Notes under the pieces: model-generated
Told to the model about the DNA's origin: nothing
Databases searched by the model: none
Seen by the model: only the letters and a program-made list of their open reading frames with translations
Shown here: in pieces, positions 1 to 23,655 of the stretch
Position numbering within the stretch: the first letter of the stretch is position 1
How the letters are laid out: each line of letters opens with the position of its first letter
Position numbers and translations under genes: made by a program
From: a virus
Direction: 5' to 3' (one strand)
DNA: 26,892 nucleotides
IMG/VR virus record: IMGVR_UViG_3300023116_000281
Span: 1 to 26,892 of that record

Positions 1-274
1 CATTAGTATTTGTAGAGTTTTGAGCGGCTTTACCGACTGCCATAATACCTTTGCCGGTTTGAGCTAATCCTTCTTTTGCAGCAACTGCGCCAGCTTTAGC
101 TCCAGCAGCTGCGCCTACGGCAGCTGACGTTGCTAGTTTAGTAAGAGTACCACCTGCACGACTCATCGCCCGAGAAAATTTTCCAGCGACTTTACCAGCT
201 CTGCCAGCTTGTCTTGATGTAGACTGAGCTGTTATTTTAGCTATTGCTTTAGCTATCCCAGATATTCGGCCCAT
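1..274 (-). CDS. Partial N-terminus, candidate tail tape-measure / hub-core protein
   Basis: A leftward gene starts at ATG 274-272 and stays open to the left edge (91 codons seen). The visible part is rich in Ala, Gly, Lys and Ser, with many small residues and basic spacing (for example AAVGAAAGAKAGAVAAKEG around residues 53-71). This looks like an amphipathic helical N-terminus. The start overlaps the end of the 57-codon frame by 26 bases and has a purine-rich AAAGAAAAGAG leader that can act as ribosome binding site. In many tailed phages the gene right after the tail-assembly chaperone pair is the tape measure, which sets tail length (gp29 in T4). The identity here rests on position and composition only. 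It could also be another hub protein, and the missing C-terminal part would decide. Confidence 0.6.
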   Translation of the reverse strand, partial: MGRISGIAKAIAKITAQSTSRQAGRAGKVAGKFSRAMSRAGGTLTKLATSAAVGAAAGAKAGAVAAKEGLAQTGKGIMAVGKAAQNSTNTN

Positions 275-422
275 TGTTACTCTTTTCTTTTTGTATTTTT
301 TCTAGTATCATGTCTACATATACTTCACGCTCGAATGGAATCATTTCGTTAATTTCAGTCAATGTGAACTTGTGATACTGAGTTACGTCAAAGTTTAACT
401 TATAGTGACTGTAAAGGTCCAT
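249..422 (-). CDS. 57-codon frame after gp26: -1 frameshift extension, candidate chaperone 'T' part / gp51-like
   Basis: The frame runs from ATG 422-420 to TAA 251-249 and encodes a charged, helix-prone polypeptide. Its core reads HYKLNF, HKFTLTEINEMIPFERE and VYVDMILEKIQKEK. This resembles, from memory, the short proteins next to gp26 in marine T4-like phages that are sometimes named gp51 (baseplate hub assembly). The ATG has no good Shine-Dalgarno sequence and lies next to a predicted stem. The frame is -1 relative to gp26. Read upstream, it stays open to a TGA at 449-447, directly before the slippery heptamer at 446-440. It is therefore best explained as the C-terminal extension of a gp26 frameshift product (about 296 aa: 233 from gp26 plus 63). 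Independent initiation is the alternative. It overlaps the next gene by 26 bases. Confidence 0.75.
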   Translation of the reverse strand: MDLYSHYKLNFDVTQYHKFTLTEINEMIPFEREVYVDMILEKIQKEKSNNGPNIWDS

Positions 423-446
423 ATAACTCAGCCCAATTGAAAAAAA
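378..446 (-). promoter_or_regulatory. Predicted programmed -1 ribosomal frameshift signal at the end of gp26
   Basis: On the minus strand a T TTT TTT heptamer (446-440) sits in the zero frame as GAT-TTT-TTT, the X XXY YYZ arrangement needed for tandem -1 slippage. Eight bases later starts CTGAGTTA (431-424), whose exact reverse complement TAACTCAG lies at 385-378. This 8-bp stem can grow to 10 bp with flanking G-U pairs and has a 38-base loop. The stem contains the gp26 stop codon. After slippage the reading continues TCA ATT GGG CTG AGT TAT ATG into the 57-codon frame. Spacer and stem dimensions fit known frameshift stimulators. Seen directly: heptamer, stem and frames. Inferred: that slippage occurs. 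Confidence 0.7.
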
Positions 447-1138
447 TCATCTAGATCCCTAAATACTACTCTTTTTTCTTTATTATTACTATTTGTATAT
501 GTAATGACATGCTCGATTTTTGGAGCGGTTTCGAAAAATCCTTGAATTTTATTATATGCTTCTATAGGCAATGAATCTAAAAATTCTTCCTTATCTTTTT
601 TAGATTCTTGTTTCCATGAGAAGACATCATCTCCATCAAAAATCTGATCAATTGATGCATTGATCATGGTATCAGTAACTTCTACTAATGTTTTTTTATC
701 TAACAATTCATCTGAGACTTTAGGAGTGGGATGTTTTAAAACTAAACCAACTTCATCAGTAATCATGATTTTTTTATCATGATCATCGGGAAATTGTACT
801 TCAACTTCATTAAGATCTGCTTCTAAATCATATGTGATACCATCATCACTATCAATGACTTGAAATTTTACAATGTTACCAACTGATGCAGATCTAATTT
901 TAATGAACATATATTCCATATCAAAAATAGGAATATCATTAACATCAAAATCTTCTTTTAAGATGCAGTTATTAACGATCGATTTGATAGCATTATAAAT
1001 GTCTATCTTCTCTCCTGATTCTTTCGCTACGAGTAGAATCTTTTCTTCTTTGACCAAAAAAGGTCGATATATTAATTTTTCGCCAGTTGAAGGTTGTGTT
1101 AATTCAAATGTTGGCGTACTAATTTTTGGTAAAGCCAT
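428..1138 (-). CDS. gp26: gp26-like baseplate hub / tail-assembly protein (T4 baseplate family)
   Basis: 236 aa, close in size to T4 gp26. The N-terminus (MALPKISTPTFELTQPSTGEK, then YRPFLVKEEKILLVAKES) is the signature I recognise from gp26 of marine T4-like phages, where it continues as a mixed alpha/beta domain with a conserved FDMEYMFIKIRSASVG segment (about residues 70-90), as here. Start ATG 1138-1136 has a GAGGAT ribosome binding site overlapping the stop of the upstream tube gene, so the two are translationally linked. In T4 the product is assigned to the baseplate hub. Its position before a frameshift cassette and a candidate tape-measure gene suggests it is the counterpart of tail-assembly chaperone G. 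The last codons (DDFFQLG) include the slippery site. Confidence 0.88.
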   Translation of the reverse strand: MALPKISTPTFELTQPSTGEKLIYRPFLVKEEKILLVAKESGEKIDIYNAIKSIVNNCILKEDFDVNDIPIFDMEYMFIKIRSASVGNIVKFQVIDSDDGITYDLEADLNEVEVQFPDDHDKKIMITDEVGLVLKHPTPKVSDELLDKKTLVEVTDTMINASIDQIFDGDDVFSWKQESKKDKEEFLDSLPIEAYNKIQGFFETAPKIEHVITYTNSNNKEKRVVFRDLDDFFQLG

Positions 1139-1147
1139 GATTTATCC

Positions 1148-1669
1148 TCATCCTAATATTTTAAATCTTGTAAATCTATAATTCACTGAAAATCTTGCGA
1201 TCTCGTCGTGTTGACCCCAACCCAATTGCATTGGTTCAACTACGATAGGAAATGCTTCAATAAATTGCACCATCTTTGCTAGTTTATTCTGTTGATTATA
1301 TATTGTGAGATTCATATCAACAACATAATCTTTTAAATACTTTGCACCATATTTTGCATCACCATCGAGGTCAACAATCTTATTTGCCCATTCTCTAAAC
1401 GTTTTATAAATCTCTGCTTTCTCATCAACCGTATGTGTCATTGATACTTCTTGTGGATTATAGCGATACGGAATGTTATACATCAATCCATTACCGTAAG
1501 GAGAATAATTATCAACTGATAAGAAAGAAATACCTGGTGCACTGACAGTTTCGGCACGCACTAATATTTCTTGTCCATCGCCTCCCGGCGGATTGACAAG
1601 TACTTCGTAACGATTAGCCGGTAGACTATCTTTTACTCTTCCTTTCCATGCGGGTATTGAAAATGGCAT
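1148..1669 (-). CDS. Tail-tube-fold protein (T4 gp19 family), candidate tube initiator
   Basis: 173 aa, close to the 163 aa of T4 gp19. The pattern is typical of the gp19 tube fold: N-terminal RYEVLV strand, VRAETVSAPGISF (about 38-50), a strand pair around IPYRYNPQEVSMTH, the helix EIYKTFREWANKIVD, and the final strand pair QLGWGQHDEIARFSVNYRFTRF. In contractile tails this fold forms the tube, and longer versions (gp48, gp54) cap the hub and start tube growth. The main tube gene normally sits beside the sheath gene, which is absent here. The hub context and short length therefore suggest a tube initiator or hub adaptor in the role of gp54, though a tube paralogue cannot be excluded. Two bases separate it from the upstream gene. 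Confidence 0.82.
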   Translation of the reverse strand: MPFSIPAWKGRVKDSLPANRYEVLVNPPGGDGQEILVRAETVSAPGISFLSVDNYSPYGNGLMYNIPYRYNPQEVSMTHTVDEKAEIYKTFREWANKIVDLDGDAKYGAKYLKDYVVDMNLTIYNQQNKLAKMVQFIEAFPIVVEPMQLGWGQHDEIARFSVNYRFTRFKILG

Positions 1670-2277: not shown

Positions 2278-2747
2278 TAAAATTTAAGTCCTAATTCTTT
2301 TTCGGTGATGATCGTGAATTCCCATCCTCTATCAGCACAATAACTTCGTGCTGCTTTCCATTTAGAAGAATTTACACCCCATGTCTTCACCTCGTATAAA
2401 TACCTCTTAGTAAGATTTTTTTGCGGAGTTGGCTCTACGGTTTCCTTAAATGGTTTAATCTCCACTACAACCGTATCTAGTTTTCCCTCGCGATTAATCT
2501 TCTTAATCCAAAAATCCGGAAAGTATCTGTGTACTCTTCCATCGATAGGTGAACGATACGGAATGACTAGCTCTTCACTCGCCCATTCCTTTATTCCGCT
2601 ATTATCATCGAGGTAGCGCATGAAATATAGTTCCCATCTACTTCGATAAATAATGTTAGTAGGATCTCCACGATACTTACTCGGATTTTTAGGTTTAAAG
2701 ACACCTTTATAAGTCTTCGCCATATACATATTTATAGGAATAATCAT
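2277..2747 (-). CDS. gp4: gp4-like head-completion protein with PD-(D/E)xK-type nuclease motif
   Basis: 156 aa if read from the first ATG; the family start MAKTYKGVFKPKNP corresponds to an internal ATG at 2723-2721, which would give 148 aa and is more likely. The sequence continues KYRGDPTNIIYRSRWEL, PYRSPIDGRVHRYFPDF and VVVEIKP. This is the conserved core of gp4 (gp50) head-completion proteins, which finish the capsid before tail joining. The arrangement E39 ... P77-D78 ... E96-x-K98 is that of a PD-(D/E)xK nuclease active site, with a Glu in the upstream helix as in TnsA-like enzymes. The upstream ATG (2747-2745) overlaps the start of the divergent gp48 gene. Confidence 0.9.
   Translation of the reverse strand: MIIPINMYMAKTYKGVFKPKNPSKYRGDPTNIIYRSRWELYFMRYLDDNSGIKEWASEELVIPYRSPIDGRVHRYFPDFWIKKINREGKLDTVVVEIKPFKETVEPTPQKNLTKRYLYEVKTWGVNSSKWKAARSYCADRGWEFTIITEKELGLKF
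2395..2402 (+). promoter_or_regulatory. Late-promoter octamer (TATAAATA), rightward, inside gp4
   Basis: Perfect octamer on the plus strand about 340 bases upstream of gp48, within the divergent gp4 gene. No promoter-sized gap exists between gp4 and gp48, so a rightward promoter must lie inside gp4. This is the best consensus match. Confidence 0.4.
2645..2652 (+). promoter_or_regulatory. Late-promoter-like octamer (GATAAATA) 94 bases before gp48
   Basis: Matches the NATAAATA form reported for late promoters of marine T4-like phages. It is closer to gp48 than the perfect octamer at 2395, so it is an alternative start for the rightward operon. Confidence 0.3.
2729..2736 (-). promoter_or_regulatory. 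T4-type late promoter octamer (TATAAATA) before gp4
   Basis: A perfect TATAAATA on the minus strand just upstream of the gp4 family start at 2723. T4-type late transcription starts roughly 5-7 bases after this octamer, so the message would begin at or beside the MAKTYKG start codon and lack a normal leader. Its position at the head of the leftward gene group supports function; the octamer is also expected a few times per strand by chance. Confidence 0.45.
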
Positions 2748-3969
2748 GGCAGAAAAAACTACAATCGATTCGGTTGGTCCGATAGCAGCTCAATTGAAGA
2801 ACGAGCTATCTTCTCTCGAAAAGACACAGATCGCAGGAATTAGAAATTTAGGTAGTATTAGTACACGACCAGGTGTGTTGAATGGTAGTGTAGCTAACTC
2901 TATTACTAATCTAAATAACCATCAAAAATCTGCTATGGAGTTAGGCGCTAACGTAGCTGCTAAACTCGAAAGAGCAGGAGCATTTAGTAAAGGTGCCGAG
3001 AAAATATTGACAACAGCTGTATCATCGACTGTCACGGACAAAATTACTCTTCCTCAAAAGTTTCCTAAAAATCCAATTGATATGGGTAGATTAGATAATC
3101 GACTTCCAAGTTTTAAGAAAAAAAGTCCTTATGAAAAAATCGCTGATAAAAAGAAAACCCTTGTAGGAGATGCAGATTTAAACTATGGTGGTTATAGTTT
3201 CCCACCAGATTTAGACAGCAATGCTGCTTCTTATATAGAATTATGGTTTTGGGAATATGATAGGCCGTCGCCTACAGCGTCAGGTACAATAAGTCCAGGT
3301 TTGAAAGTATGGTTACCAATTCCAGAAAACTTTACTATCAATCATGAAGTCAAATATCAAGAACGAGATACAGGAATTCTCGGAGATTTAATGCAATCCG
3401 ATGGAGCTCAAAATTCTGGATATGCCGGTGAGGGCTTAAGCGGTTTGCAAGCGAAAGCAAACGAATTGATGGAAAGAATGGCAAAAGCTACCGGCGAAGA
3501 AGCCTCGCAAGCATTAGCTGAAGTTTCAAAGCGTGCAGCTTTTGCTGCATTGAACTCTTCAGATGAAGTACTAGGAGGTTTAGCTGGCCGGATTACTGGC
3601 GAGATTCCAAACCCACACCCAACAGTATTCTTCAAAGGTTTGGAATTACGTCAATTTACTTGGACTTGGAAATTAGTACCACGATCAGCTGATGAAGCGG
3701 CTACGTTAAAAGATATAATTATTCAAATGAAGAAACGTATATTGCCGAAAAAAGACGGCAGCTTCTTAAAATACCCAAATGTATTACAACCATCAGTAAA
3801 ACCGAATGAAAGTCTTTATGGTAAATTTATGAAATCTGCTGTTAAAACATTTTCGGTTAATTATACCGCTGAAGGCACATCTGCTTTCTTTGTAGATGGC
3901 GCGCCTGTAGCAATCAATCTTATTCTCACATTCCAAGAAATGGAGAATATGACTTCAGAGGATGTATAA
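2746..3969 (+). CDS. gp48: Baseplate tail-tube cap protein (gp48-like)
   Basis: 407 aa (T4 gp48 is 364). The N-terminal about 100 residues look helical and flexible. The middle has YIELWFWEYDRP and LKVWLPIPENFTINHEVKYQE. The C-terminal part has the family signature FFKGLELRQFTWTWKLVPRS (about 297-316), an EAATLKDIIIQMKK helix, YPNVLQPSVKP and FSVNYTAEGTSAFFVDGAPV. gp48 caps the central hub and presents the first ring on which the tube polymerises; it is built on a gp19-like fold. The ATG has AGGA at a 6-base spacing. Its TAA overlaps the next ATG (TAATG), so gp53 is coupled to it. The insertion of about 80 mostly Ala/Glu/Ser-rich residues around 210-290 is helical and lies inside the family core. 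Confidence 0.85.
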   Translation: MAEKTTIDSVGPIAAQLKNELSSLEKTQIAGIRNLGSISTRPGVLNGSVANSITNLNNHQKSAMELGANVAAKLERAGAFSKGAEKILTTAVSSTVTDKITLPQKFPKNPIDMGRLDNRLPSFKKKSPYEKIADKKKTLVGDADLNYGGYSFPPDLDSNAASYIELWFWEYDRPSPTASGTISPGLKVWLPIPENFTINHEVKYQERDTGILGDLMQSDGAQNSGYAGEGLSGLQAKANELMERMAKATGEEASQALAEVSKRAAFAALNSSDEVLGGLAGRITGEIPNPHPTVFFKGLELRQFTWTWKLVPRSADEAATLKDIIIQMKKRILPKKDGSFLKYPNVLQPSVKPNESLYGKFMKSAVKTFSVNYTAEGTSAFFVDGAPVAINLILTFQEMENMTSEDV

Positions 3970-4844
3970 TGACAGATAGAACTCAATACTTTCGTAAATT
4001 TCCTATTACAATTTATAATGATATTCCTTCGCTCAATATTTTGCGACGCGTCGATTTTAATAAAAATGTCAAGAATTTCTTATCGGCATTTTATACATTT
4101 GAAATGCCTGAAGGAACGAGACCAGAGACATTAGCATTTGATTATTATGACGATGTAGATCTTGATTGGTTGATCTATATGACAAATGATGTCGTAGATC
4201 CATATTTTGATATGCCTTTGAATCAAGATGATTTTACAGCAAATATCAAGAAAAAATATGGATCAGAGGAAAACGCTCGTAAGAAAGTATTCGTTTATAG
4301 AAATAATTATAGAGGCGATGATCAAATTATTGCGCAGGGAGTATATGATTCGTTAGTCGGTGAACGTAAAAAATATTGGGAGCCAATCTTTAATCAATTA
4401 GGTATTATTGGTTATCAACGAACTAAGACAGAAATGTATGCGTCTACAAATCGAATTATTTCTTATAGCTACAGTTCCACAGTGTCGACACCGTTTACGA
4501 AAGGAGAGATAGTAAGATTTACTTCTGGTTCATCGAGTGGTATTGCTACGGTCGCAACATCTGATACAACATATATTACTTTACAACATATCACTGGAGA
4601 TTGGAGTGAGATGACATCAAACTTCGATGTAACTGGAGATACTTCTGGAGTAACTATCAATTTTGATTACGAAACATATACCCTGATCAAAGATGTAATT
4701 CCGTCTGTTGAGCAAGTTTATTTTTCTCCATATTATTATTATGATTATGAGTTTGAATTAAACGAACAAAAACGCAATGTCTATCTCGTAGATAGTGACT
4801 ATGCAAACAGAGTAAATAAGCAATTAGATGACTTGCTGAAATAG
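3969..4844 (+). CDS. gp53: Baseplate wedge subunit gp53-like, with inserted beta module
   Basis: 291 aa against 196 in T4. The N-terminal core is clear: EGTRPETLAFDYYDDVDLDW (48-67) then LIYMTNDVVDPYFDMPL aligns with T4 gp53 'GSPRPEELANAIYGNPQLYW' and its following NDNYDPYY segment. The C-terminal part (YEFELNEQKRNVYL, then a helix ending DDLLK) matches the T4 C-terminus in layout. Between them lies an extra segment, about 165-235, holding GEIVRFTSGSSSGIATV and a DVTGDTSG strand. The same kind of module occurs in other proteins of this window. gp53 joins neighbouring wedges and binds the hub. The start overlaps the gp48 stop and is preceded by AGAGGA. Confidence 0.9.
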   Translation: MTDRTQYFRKFPITIYNDIPSLNILRRVDFNKNVKNFLSAFYTFEMPEGTRPETLAFDYYDDVDLDWLIYMTNDVVDPYFDMPLNQDDFTANIKKKYGSEENARKKVFVYRNNYRGDDQIIAQGVYDSLVGERKKYWEPIFNQLGIIGYQRTKTEMYASTNRIISYSYSSTVSTPFTKGEIVRFTSGSSSGIATVATSDTTYITLQHITGDWSEMTSNFDVTGDTSGVTINFDYETYTLIKDVIPSVEQVYFSPYYYYDYEFELNEQKRNVYLVDSDYANRVNKQLDDLLK

Positions 4845-20900: not shown

Positions 20901-23655
20901 TGGTTATTTGTATCAACGGCCATCGGCATCTACGACACTCGCTACTGAAATACTTGTAGAATTTGATTATTTGTATGACGGCGATGAACACGGTGCTAAA
21001 GTAATAAACTCATATAATATTAGTGATGAGCAAGAACTCACTACTCTACGTGCTAATACTACACCTAATGGAGTAATGCATACTCTTGAAATTCCAGAAA
21101 TGGTAAGTGAGAGAGGACGATATTTCGATCTTCGTGAATGTATTGACTTTAGACCGATGGCAAAACCGACTGCAGCCGTTACTACTGATCCTGCAACAGC
21201 AAACTGCGCATCGTCTGAAGTGGTATCATTTAATTATAGTCAATATAGATTCCCGAAACCACAAAGCAACTTTGAATATGATATTACATATTATAAAGGT
21301 CGCACAGATGAAATCAGTGTAAAGTCTGATGGTAGTTTCGACGTTACAATTGGTGCTAAAGAATTACAGAAACATACTGAAGCAAATAAATTAAGTTTAT
21401 ATAAGTGTAGTGTAAAACCATATCCTTCAATTCCTGAGAGACCATCGACAGAATTGAAAGAGATTATGTCTACGTTTGTAGAAAATAGTAATGCGCTATT
21501 CATTCGAGTAAGTAAATTCCAAAATCAATTATTCAAAGTTGATCCACAGAATCGTGTATATACGATGTCTGAAATTGGTAATCTTGAGAGAAGAATTAAT
21601 GCTCTTGAATATAATCAAAATATGTCAGAACTTGAAAATAAGACAATTAATAAAACAATTCAAAGTTCTGTTGATAGTACACTAGAAAGATTTAAGTTTG
21701 GTTTCTTTGTAGATAATTTTGAAAACTATGGTCTTTCAAATAGAGACCTATCATATTATAATGCATCTATCTATGAATACGTATTACAGCCCGATAGAAC
21801 AACACTCAATATTGACTTTGAGGTTGCTGCAGTATCTTCGAAGTATGTAATCGGTAATAAGATTACTTTCCCACATAAGAGAAAAAATCTTGTAAGTCAA
21901 ACAATTGCTACTTATGCGCCATATGTAGAGCCATATGTGCCTGAGATTGAAGAGTTTTGTGAATTTGAATCTAATAGAAATCTACAAAATGTCGGAGATA
22001 CAACTACTACACCATACGAAAAACTGCAACGAGTGTGGGAAGAGTTTACATTCGTAGGTACTAACGAAACTGACGGTACACAAAGATATGTTGAGATTAA
22101 ATTCTTCAACCCGCAGGGTGGTATTTCATATGAAGTAATTCAATCATCTCAGCCACCGACACAGGCTAGCCAAGAAGTTGGTACGTTACAAGTAGATCCT
22201 ACTAAGACTGATAAATTTGTAGCTCTTGGACCTGATGAAGCTATTGAGTTATATAAGAAATTATATCCAGTCAAAAACGGTAAAAATCAAGTTGTTCCAT
22301 ATTCTACTAATCCATGGTTTGAAACTGCAAATTCAACTCCGTCAAATATCAGAGTAACAATAGATGGTACTGGTCCATTTGATTATAAAGCTTGGCAAGG
22401 AGCCGGCAAATTACGATTTGCATATAATCATCTCAATGGTCGATATATTACGGTTAGAGCCCATAAAGCAAAAGAAGTATTTAACTTTGAAATTTGCTAT
22501 CCTGCTACTACACAAGCTGATGCGGTATATGATTCTGGTCAAACAGCTGTAAATACACGGCCGCCTGCATGTCCTAAAGGTACGTTCAAATACGATCGTT
22601 GTGTTGGTAGCACACTTTATGTATATCAGTGTGATGGTAACTATGGCACCGAAATTGGTTATACTGTACCAAATTCACCAAAGTGTTATGTCGCTCCACC
22701 GCCAATTGATGAACCGCCTGAAGAAAGTTGTCCTCCAGCTGGTTCGTTCTACAAAGTTTCATGTTCCGGAACATCACAGATAACATACACATATACAGGT
22801 AATGTAGGTAGTGGACCTGGTGGTTGTAGTGTCACAGCTTCAGATACTGTAGTTTGTTCTTCAGCGTGTGGTTGTAGTCCGACTACACCAGAACCTGGTT
22901 GTACTGAACAAACCACACCACCAACAAATAATAGTGGTGATGATGGTTGTGTGAGTACAAACGATCCCACATGTAATATTGAAGAAGAATCTACTCCACC
23001 ACCAGTTCCACCTTCTGGTCCACCAACACCTGACCCCGATGATGACCCACCACTGCCTGAAGAGCCAGTTGTTGAGCCGCCAGATCCACCGCCTCCGCCG
23101 CCTCCACCTCCACCTACTCCGCCTACTACTCCTGGCGGCGGTGGTGGCTGTGTACATGTAGACAGTTATTTGCCAGTCGTTACAGAAGGTCAAAATCGGG
23201 CGCATCAAATGATGCCTGGATCTGCTGTATTGTTGGGTACTGAAGATCTAGAAATAGTTGAAGGCACTGTTATTAATGCAGTAACTAAACCAGAACCATG
23301 CGTAAGAGTTACAACTGAAGCTGGAATTAGTCTGATATGTTCTACGTCAGCACCTCTATGGACCGATGAAGGTAAATACTACGATGCACCAGATGTCGGC
23401 GACAAGAAAGTAGCAGTTATGAAAGATGGTCAAACATGGTTCGATACCGTTGTTAATGTCGAAGATATGGGTGTACTTGATGTTAGGCCGATGGATTGCG
23501 GTGATAAGAACTTCTGGGCAGGTGAAAAAGATGGTGAATACATCTTACACCATAACGTGAAGATAAGATTTAAAGATGGTCCAAACTTTGCGCCGATGCA
23601 CGGTATGTTTAATCTACCCGGCACCCTTAGAGACTTAGTATTAGATAAAAAATAA
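17944..23655 (+). CDS. Giant DUF4815-type baseplate/adhesin protein with C-terminal Cys-rich repeats, Pro linker and Hint domain
   Basis: 1903 aa, the largest protein here. Residues 1-70 (SPYFDDFDRNNNYYRILFKP, then VREVNQLQTMLQDQIEQFGDHILKAGTILDG) are the DUF4815 signature found in large structural proteins of marine T4-like phages. A long beta-rich body follows, with a GGFGY motif near 310 and a coiled stretch (MSEIGNLERRINALEYNQNM, ELENKTINKTIQSSVDSTLERF, about 1210-1250). Residues 1543-1638 hold two Cys-rich repeats. About 1684-1735 is Pro/Asp/Glu-rich, ending in ten consecutive Pro, TPPTTP and Gly5. From C1736 to N1871 is a Hint-like domain, and 32 residues follow. It probably sits at the baseplate periphery (the place of T4 gp9/gp10 or a fibre base). 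GGAG precedes the ATG by about 9 bases. Confidence 0.85.
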   Translation: MPLNTNLSSSPYFDDFDRNNNYYRILFKPATAVQVREVNQLQTMLQDQIEQFGDHILKAGTILDGCNFTYHNSMPFVKILDTTKKGAAVDISKLAGMSANGQLTGKIALIDHVEDGFESDNINLKTLYVTYLDDEAASAAGTTNPDEDEFLAGEEIRIFHQDERLFDITVANNSNGSTVFSNNDVVVIFSAIEISSATNGDANFANTFAVNDVISDVATGNISLIVTHDPIPHPENDSLILRVKPNSQYQYGDQIDASRWDIEVDQLLECTTGSGSGNQFKVVSFIGQNATGKITTTAGGQIQSAEITRGGFGYNILPHISLYSVGATNATVLNNLQLDPENWYQTVTAGSSVTNPIGEGYGISVASGQIYQKGLFLNVAPQFKMVSKFSNTPSDLSVGFDSTESVVNVFTDATLYDNASGFLNQSAPGADRLRVSPVLVVRTAAEEKTATNFFPIIRFSEGKPFQQNKTTQYNKIGDMIAQRTYDESGNYVLDEFRATTRSPLDFEDSDTTFSYVVDPGHAYIGGYRIKTETNFVKNVNKGTDTVTKTDQDIDLNYAAYVEVNEVAGVSSFNDNNDVVLKDAAANFISDYDYDGVAGANTVSSSLGGNTIGSAKIRNITYVSGIQGTSNAKYRIYLFDIQMNKGKNFKDVRSIYTDLNSGLMLEDGIADVVTIQSNQNIIRSLKSAGEVQIEEGGNNYIVDAYGDIAQIVDADRNALIFNTGLPASSITNTSYIYRTTGTTYYNVNTSGQITVAKQTNATWPYSSGSGYLSDQEENDLVIVPKQDVIASADIESGMTLSTSSDGNNLYTITDSAGAATFVTNMRVGDWITDGTDVGQITAIGGQNKLTFRSQSGLFSGLSNATGKSFKRIFPKDIPVDLSSRSTANAEVNGNDLIINLGVAVPAATGAFSVTFDQQYDNQIVSMDVRRGYYVLVNTTGDWDKGKNLGFSGIIRLVNVYNGTDTSNTNITSEFYVDNNQRDAYWGLGYLYQRPSASTTLATEILVEFDYLYDGDEHGAKVINSYNISDEQELTTLRANTTPNGVMHTLEIPEMVSERGRYFDLRECIDFRPMAKPTAAVTTDPATANCASSEVVSFNYSQYRFPKPQSNFEYDITYYKGRTDEISVKSDGSFDVTIGAKELQKHTEANKLSLYKCSVKPYPSIPERPSTELKEIMSTFVENSNALFIRVSKFQNQLFKVDPQNRVYTMSEIGNLERRINALEYNQNMSELENKTINKTIQSSVDSTLERFKFGFFVDNFENYGLSNRDLSYYNASIYEYVLQPDRTTLNIDFEVAAVSSKYVIGNKITFPHKRKNLVSQTIATYAPYVEPYVPEIEEFCEFESNRNLQNVGDTTTTPYEKLQRVWEEFTFVGTNETDGTQRYVEIKFFNPQGGISYEVIQSSQPPTQASQEVGTLQVDPTKTDKFVALGPDEAIELYKKLYPVKNGKNQVVPYSTNPWFETANSTPSNIRVTIDGTGPFDYKAWQGAGKLRFAYNHLNGRYITVRAHKAKEVFNFEICYPATTQADAVYDSGQTAVNTRPPACPKGTFKYDRCVGSTLYVYQCDGNYGTEIGYTVPNSPKCYVAPPPIDEPPEESCPPAGSFYKVSCSGTSQITYTYTGNVGSGPGGCSVTASDTVVCSSACGCSPTTPEPGCTEQTTPPTNNSGDDGCVSTNDPTCNIEEESTPPPVPPSGPPTPDPDDDPPLPEEPVVEPPDPPPPPPPPPPTPPTTPGGGGGCVHVDSYLPVVTEGQNRAHQMMPGSAVLLGTEDLEIVEGTVINAVTKPEPCVRVTTEAGISLICSTSAPLWTDEGKYYDAPDVGDKKVAVMKDGQTWFDTVVNVEDMGVLDVRPMDCGDKNFWAGEKDGEYILHHNVKIRFKDGPNFAPMHGMFNLPGTLRDLVLDKK
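22570..22857 (+). repeat. Two Cys-rich repeats in the DUF4815-type protein
   Basis: Unit 1 spans C1543-C1581 (CPKGTFKYDRCVGSTLYVYQ, then CDGNYG ... KC). Unit 2 spans C1596-C1638 (CPPAGSFYKVSCSG ... YTYTGNVGSGPGGC ... VVC). The shared frame is CP-x-G-[ST]-F, C-x-G, a YxYxGN/CDGN-like turn, and a closing Cys. They resemble 'GTF...C.G...DG.GG...C' repeats I recall from fibre-related proteins of marine T4-like phages. More cysteines follow (CSSACGC, CTEQ, DDGC, PTC), giving an unusual Cys density for a phage protein. Confidence 0.7.
23149..23556 (+). other. Hint (intein/hedgehog-like) domain at the C-terminus of the giant protein
   Basis: This 136-residue segment has the Hint layout. It begins with Cys after a Pro/Gly linker (GGGGGC-VHVDSYLPV, block A). 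MMPGSAVLLGTEDLEI takes the place of 'l.xGDxV'. CVRVTTEAGISLICSTSAPLW is block B-like. Then come DVGDKKVAVMKDG and a strand WFDTVVNVEDMG, and finally VRPMDCGDKNFWAGEKDGEY with ILHHN (blocks F and G), ending in His1869-His1870-Asn1871. The usual block B His of TxxH is Ala1803 here, and the residue after Asn is Val, not Cys/Ser/Thr. Full splicing is therefore unlikely; cleavage at Asn or a purely structural role remain possible. No homing-endonuclease insertion is present. Confidence 0.75.

Follow-up and report, generated by a model that had tools for sequence, protein, structure and literature searches.

The gp26 locus and its -1 frame

We analysed a window of 26,892 bases, which is a whole IMG/VR virus record and represents a fragment of a marine T4-like phage. 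On its minus strand a tail-tube-like gene (phrog_45) is followed by gp26, by a frame in the -1 phase that overlaps the end of gp26, and by the start of a further gene that is cut by the record end (Table 1). The zero frame of gp26 matched PF12322 (T4_baseplate, E 1e-51) and phrog_150 (baseplate hub, E 1.1e-57) and was less than 60% identical to every phage in the collection searched. Counted from the zero-frame stop, the -1 frame opens at position -16, that is, at a slippery heptamer, and its 65 codons include the two Phe codons of the heptamer, which leaves the 63 open codons counted in a first-pass annotation of this DNA. The 57-aa frame that begins at an internal ATG (422) belongs to the gp51 family (phrog_634, E 1.3e-18). 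The next ORF, starting at 274, overlaps the -1 frame by 26 nt; the first-pass annotation had noted the overlap, and the coordinates that it gave, among them those of the heptamer, the preceding TGA and the stem, all agreed with the sequence.

Table 1. Features of the gp26 locus in the window.
Feature	Position	Strand	Basis
Tail-tube-like protein, directly upstream of gp26	1148-1669	-	phrog_45 tail tube, E 4.5e-21
gp26, candidate short tail-assembly chaperone (TAC-N), 236 aa, zero frame	428-1138	-	PF12322, phrog_150
TGA closing the -1 frame directly 5' of the heptamer	447-449	-	Sequence
Slippery heptamer T TTT TTT, in phase with gp26	440-446	-	Sequence and conservation
-1 frame extension (gp51-like, candidate TAC-C), 65 codons and stop, from the heptamer	249-446	-	phrog_634, alignment, PxER spacing
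Stem, 5' arm	423-432 (core 431-424, CTGAGTTA)	-	Sequence, family pairing
gp26 zero-frame stop TGA, inside the 5' arm of the stem	428-430	-	Sequence
Small ATG frame, 57 aa	249-422	-	ORF list
Stem, 3' arm	377-386 (core 385-378, TAACTCAG)	-	Sequence, family pairing
Next gene, start only; Ala/Lys/Gly-rich tape-measure candidate, cut by the record end	2-274	-	ORF

Conservation of the heptamer and the -1 frame

A search of IMG/VR with gp26 recovered 80 loci, 79 of them (38-99% identical) with an intact gp26 end. In all 79 intact relatives the heptamer keeps its phase and reads either T TTT TTT or T TTT TTC. The residue preceding it is D, N or S, always with a T-ending codon, and the heptamer is kept even where this residue changes. 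Computed with each locus's own codon usage for 51 representatives of less than 75% mutual identity, and ignoring phylogeny, the joint probability of this codon choice is ~1e-21. The -1 frame is open in every intact relative and its peptide is conserved from the first residue, beginning with FF at the heptamer (alignment consensus FFYxxLSHNxLxNYYxxxFxLxQHHKYSxxEIENMIPxERDxYVxML). The PxER motif lies 36 codons from the heptamer in all sequences but one (L006, 37 codons), and the zero-frame stop varies in position, its distance from the start of the heptamer being 7, 10, 13, 16 or 31 nt.

Public records either annotate gp51 as a small CDS of its own, with starts that vary, or have no entry for it, and the corresponding reading of the window makes the 57-codon frame a small gene in its own right, translated by re-initiation at ATG 422 after the gp26 stop, the T run being incidental. 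In favour of this reading, the ATG lies 5 nt past the stop; L002 and L004 likewise have an in-frame ATG a few nucleotides past the zero-frame stop, and Sinorhizobium phage phiM19 has one near it. Against re-initiation, ATG 422 shows no recognisable Shine-Dalgarno sequence, in agreement with the first-pass annotation, which had found no convincing ribosome binding site for the small frame. Most relatives have no ATG at this place, and many have none in the -1 frame before codon 34-45, so that in those loci an independent start could not yield the conserved part. An independent gene would also leave the invariance of the heptamer unexplained, and conservation begins at the heptamer and keeps a fixed spacing.

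Twelve named phage records from several T4-like groups were read in addition, and the arrangement of heptamer and -1 frame is present in 11 of them: Synechococcus phages S-MbCM7, S-RSM4 and S-H68, Prochlorococcus phage P-HM1, Pelagibacter phage Mosig, Sinorhizobium phage phiM19, Stenotrophomonas phage Yut2, Pseudomonas phage Astolliot, Vibrio phage nt-1, Citrobacter phage Ci1 and Aeromonas phage 65. The groups represented are Kyanoviridae, Emdodecavirus, Menderavirus and Otagovirus, together with the Vibrio nt-1, Citrobacter Ci1 and Aeromonas 65 phages. Only Vibrio phage D504 (L091:2842-3870) departs from it: a gp26 homologue is followed by an open -1 frame, and the small frame is kept, without the slippery heptamer and with a TAATG stop-start overlap. 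This is perhaps a switch from frameshifting to re-initiation, and it counts in favour of a separate gp51. The annotated gp51 starts differ between phages and omit conserved residues, and no gene is annotated at the gp51-like frame of S-MbCM7, both of which speak against a separate gene. We consider an independent gp51 in the window very improbable; some independent small product is possible in the window, L002 and L004.

The first-pass annotation had named a broken heptamer or a changed phase in relatives as contrary evidence, and both heptamer and -1 phase are kept in 79/79 intact IMG/VR relatives and 11/12 named phages. The same counts bear on chance, under which neither the T run nor the overlapping frame would have a function. 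The window is AT-rich and its main ORFs contain 40 in-phase X XXY YYZ strings of any kind, which would favour chance; across the 8712 in-phase positions of these ORFs, the heptamer is the only T6Y/T6A or A6G/A6A/A6C site. With this degree of conservation and a -1 frame family homologous to T4 gp51, the probability that we assign to chance is negligible, and the comparative data rule it out. The programmed -1 frameshift cassette is, on comparative sequence evidence, real.

A conserved stem downstream of the heptamer

The first-pass annotation had also described a stem downstream of the heptamer. It is perfect over 8 bp, starts 8 nt past the heptamer, encloses a loop of 38 nt and could be lengthened at its two ends by the pairs G432-U377 and U423-G386. 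Its placement stands and the family data show it to be selected, but in the window alone it is not significant: its folding energy is unremarkable (z -1.37), and compared with synonymous shuffles it reached p = 0.10. RNAalifold found no consensus structure in gapless alignments of the window's clade and a second clade, and the stem was therefore tested by named pairs and synonymous-codon nulls. Since both arms are coding, the null was a synonymous one that preserves the peptide of the -1 frame as well as the whole sequence as far as the zero-frame stop.

For the window's clade, the gapless alignment comprised 29 representatives. The 10-pair helix forms in 80.7% of cells, compared with 21-38% for slid partners, and its covariation score of 0.21 was reached by none of 500 shuffles (phylogeny ignored). 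Folding compared with the synonymous null gave a mean z of -2.26, with p < 0.05 in 59% of loci (phylogeny ignored). When the 3' arm alone was re-coded, 227 of 261 pairs were formed in the actual sequences as against 193.9 ± 4.1 in the null (phylogeny ignored). For the Gln codon of this arm, 23 of 27 loci use CAG, although it accounts for 35% of the Gln codons across these genes. Where the stop is UAA the window-type pairing is lost, and some such loci (L016, L019 and L047) have a best fold that pairs GGGCUAA with a shifted partner.

The second clade has a different hairpin, GCCUC/GAGGC, in 9/9 loci. All 45 of its 45 pairs are formed (null 37.0 ± 1.3), a count that ignores phylogeny and is partly circular, the set having been chosen for the motif. 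The codon bias is the stronger point: the hairpin uses the Leu codon CTC, which elsewhere accounts for 2 of the 228 Leu codons in those genes. One locus of this clade shows a double compensating change, CTG with CAG. At family level the predicted stem is real and under selection. On balance, and with some reserve, we favour the reading that a conserved stem just past the slippery site stimulates the T4-like tail-chaperone frameshift and comes in two shapes, one with 9-10 bp and a 36-38-nt loop overlapping the gp26 stop (window's clade) and a short hairpin of the GCCUC/GAGGC type (second clade). Stop and stem would be locked together, loci with UAA in place of UGA losing the stem or shifting its partner. 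The literature searched, in which Vladimirov et al. 2022 is represented by papers that cite it, yielded no description of conserved downstream stems.

The stem bears as well on transcriptional slippage, in which RNA polymerase would drop or add a U in the T run and so produce mixed mRNAs. A T run is a typical substrate for such slippage and the -1 frame could be reached by it. Efficient polymerase slippage, however, usually occurs on runs longer than 6-8 T, and the run has only 6 T in 34 of the 80 sequences and 7 or 8 in the others. What is conserved is an in-phase X XXY YYZ heptamer with a selected stem 6-8 nt downstream, which fits ribosomal slippage. We judge the transcriptional route very improbable, slightly more so than an independent gp51.

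Comparison with T4 gp26 and gp51

T4 gp26 (208 aa) matches phrog_150 over 14-235 only, and T4 gp51 (249 aa) matches phrog_150 over 13-280 and, with residues 147-246, also phrog_634. The two T4 proteins are recognisably similar to each other (BLASTP, E 2e-6), and this similarity and the match spans make gp26 the short and gp51 the long form of one protein. Window gp26 aligned with T4 gp26 (hhalign, E 2e-10). Direct BLASTP of window gp26 or of the small frame against T4 gp51 was weak or not significant, so that profiles were needed for this comparison; by profile, the -1 frame peptide aligned to T4 gp51 residues 200-244 (hhalign, E 1.3e-4) and found no placement on T4 gp26 (E 0.39). The homologous parts shared with T4 are thus gp26 with the zero frame and the gp51 C-terminus with the -1 frame. 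The first-pass annotation had proposed one system for gp26 and the gp51-like part; the paralogous short and long forms of T4 and the assignment of the small frame to phrog_634 bear this out.

T4 gene 26 ends in GAG TTC TTT GAG TTA CTA TAA at the homologous FF; it lacks the heptamer, and there is no -1 frame of the gp51 type after it. In T4 the two forms come from separate genes of divergent orientation, whereas in the window the -1 extension is directly attached and the heptamer is present. The T4 arrangement, with a separate long gene, was considered for the window and rejected because of the heptamer and the attached extension. A tblastn search with gp26 gave a single match in the 26.9 kb that the record covers, and a second copy may lie elsewhere in the genome. 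T4 is a natural control for the predicted frameshift, lacking the heptamer and carrying the extension in a separate long gene 51.

Neighbouring genes and predicted fold of gp26

The downstream gene was regarded in the first-pass annotation as a tape-measure candidate, and some relatives have a tape-measure-like protein there. In L010 the ORF after the -1 frame belongs to tape-measure family phrog_9570 (E 4.7e-36), and the ORFs at this place in both L010 and L080 match tape-measure families, but those of the other relatives tested do not, and the ORF of the window had no family match in Pfam or PHROG. The same holds for the ORF of L001, whose gp26 is 99% identical to that of the window and in which the downstream gene extends to at least 471 aa.

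What follows the -1 frame in relatives is frequently the ORF of a long protein that has domains of cell-wall hydrolases, which are of the chitinase type in L006, a tail lysozyme in L010, SLT in L037 and Hydrolase_2 in L080. One clade (L039, L040, L046, L061, L062 and others) has a small membrane protein of ~100 aa directly after the gp51-like frame; the first 40 residues of that of L039 match GTA_holin_3TM (PF11351, E 2.7e-5). A holin-like gene seems to have been inserted in this clade, where it separates the chaperone from the large gene that comes next. On the plus strand of the window, a long run of large ORFs (6135-26488), apparently baseplate and tail genes, lies downstream of gp48- and gp53-like genes (2746-4844). 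Within this run, the C-terminal part of a 1903-aa ORF (23149-23655) follows a proline/glycine linker, starts with Cys (GCVHVDSYLP) and has HHN near its end; it is reminiscent of a Hint/intein-like domain, and Pfam gave no match.

An AlphaFold2 model of gp26 alone, made without the -1 extension, had a pLDDT of 89. The first match of this model in a PDB fold search was the HK97 tail-assembly chaperone 2ob9, at an E-value (0.83) and probability (0.51) that are not significant, so the predicted resemblance is suggestive only. Further matches of the model are numerous gp26 models of viral origin and a single 'hub assembly catalyst' from Acinetobacter, and a sequence search of gp26 against PDB chains gave nothing real.

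A probable frameshifted tail-assembly chaperone

In lambda G/GT, a short chaperone is extended by a -1 slip near the 3' end of its gene, at the heptamer G GGA AAG, into a longer fusion, and the tape-measure gene comes next. The window shares this layout, with a predicted -1 slip and fusion and a tape-measure candidate as the next gene. It differs in its heptamer, T TTT TTT, and in a downstream stem that is under selection in its family, and its predicted fold resembles a TAC of such kind (HK97, 2ob9) only weakly. It has several features of a TAC-N/TAC-NC pair, namely a gp26/TAC-N homologue, a conserved in-phase heptamer and a -1 frame with a gp51-type C-terminal domain. We hold it highly probable that the T4-like phage of the window carries a lambda G/GT-type gene for its tail-assembly chaperones, with gp26 as the short product and a gp26-gp51 fusion made by a -1 slip. 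The interpretation in the first-pass annotation was essentially right, and the kind of system was already known.

We infer slippage, its efficiency and the chaperone action from these sequence features, as follows. Most ribosomes would read gp26 to its TGA and give the short form, TAC-N. A minority would stall at U UUU UUU, aided by the stem 8 nt downstream, and slip by -1 with re-pairing of the tRNA-Phe in both P and A site; reading on in the -1 frame, they would produce the long form, TAC-NC, a fusion of gp26 with the gp51-like domain. If lambda is a guide, the tape-measure protein encoded by the next gene would be coated by many short and few long molecules, and these would deliver it for assembly of the tail tube.

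Frameshifting is reportedly conserved in several T4-like groups, with the T4 group said to use two genes, in the work of Vladimirov, Gautam and Davidson. As far as the citing papers PMC10885494 and PMC12846349 convey it, TAC frameshifting in T4-like phages was already described (Vladimirov, Gautam & Davidson 2022, Virology 566:9-15). In citing that study, the PRFect paper (PMC10885494) states that some T4-like phages have separate short and long TAC genes and no frameshifting, and PMC12846349 refers to poly-T slippery sequences in T4-like TAC-N genes. To the extent of these citations, the poly-T site and the scheme of short and long products are shared with the window, which differs from the T4-like TACs of Vladimirov et al. 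2022 in being an unannotated IMG/VR fragment. The system that PMC12846349 itself deals with similarly shifts frame by -1 at a poly-T site where TAC-N ends, and has a downstream ORF misannotated as a separate gene, but its conserved motif is GTTTTT, unlike the T TTT TTY of the window, and its phage family is different. The window is an unannotated further case of a known T4-like strategy, of which the conservation of the stem is the sole part that we did not find described.

Sullivan et al. 2010 (PMC3037559) give cyanophage gp51 as only ~20% of the length of other gp51, and this would be because it is the end of a frameshifted gp26. What is annotated as a small 'gp51' gene in many marine T4-like phages is very probably no gene of its own and instead forms the end of a frameshifted gp26; its annotated starts would then be wrong and cut off conserved residues. 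T4 may then be seen as a natural experiment in the exchange of a frameshift for two genes, in one direction or the other.
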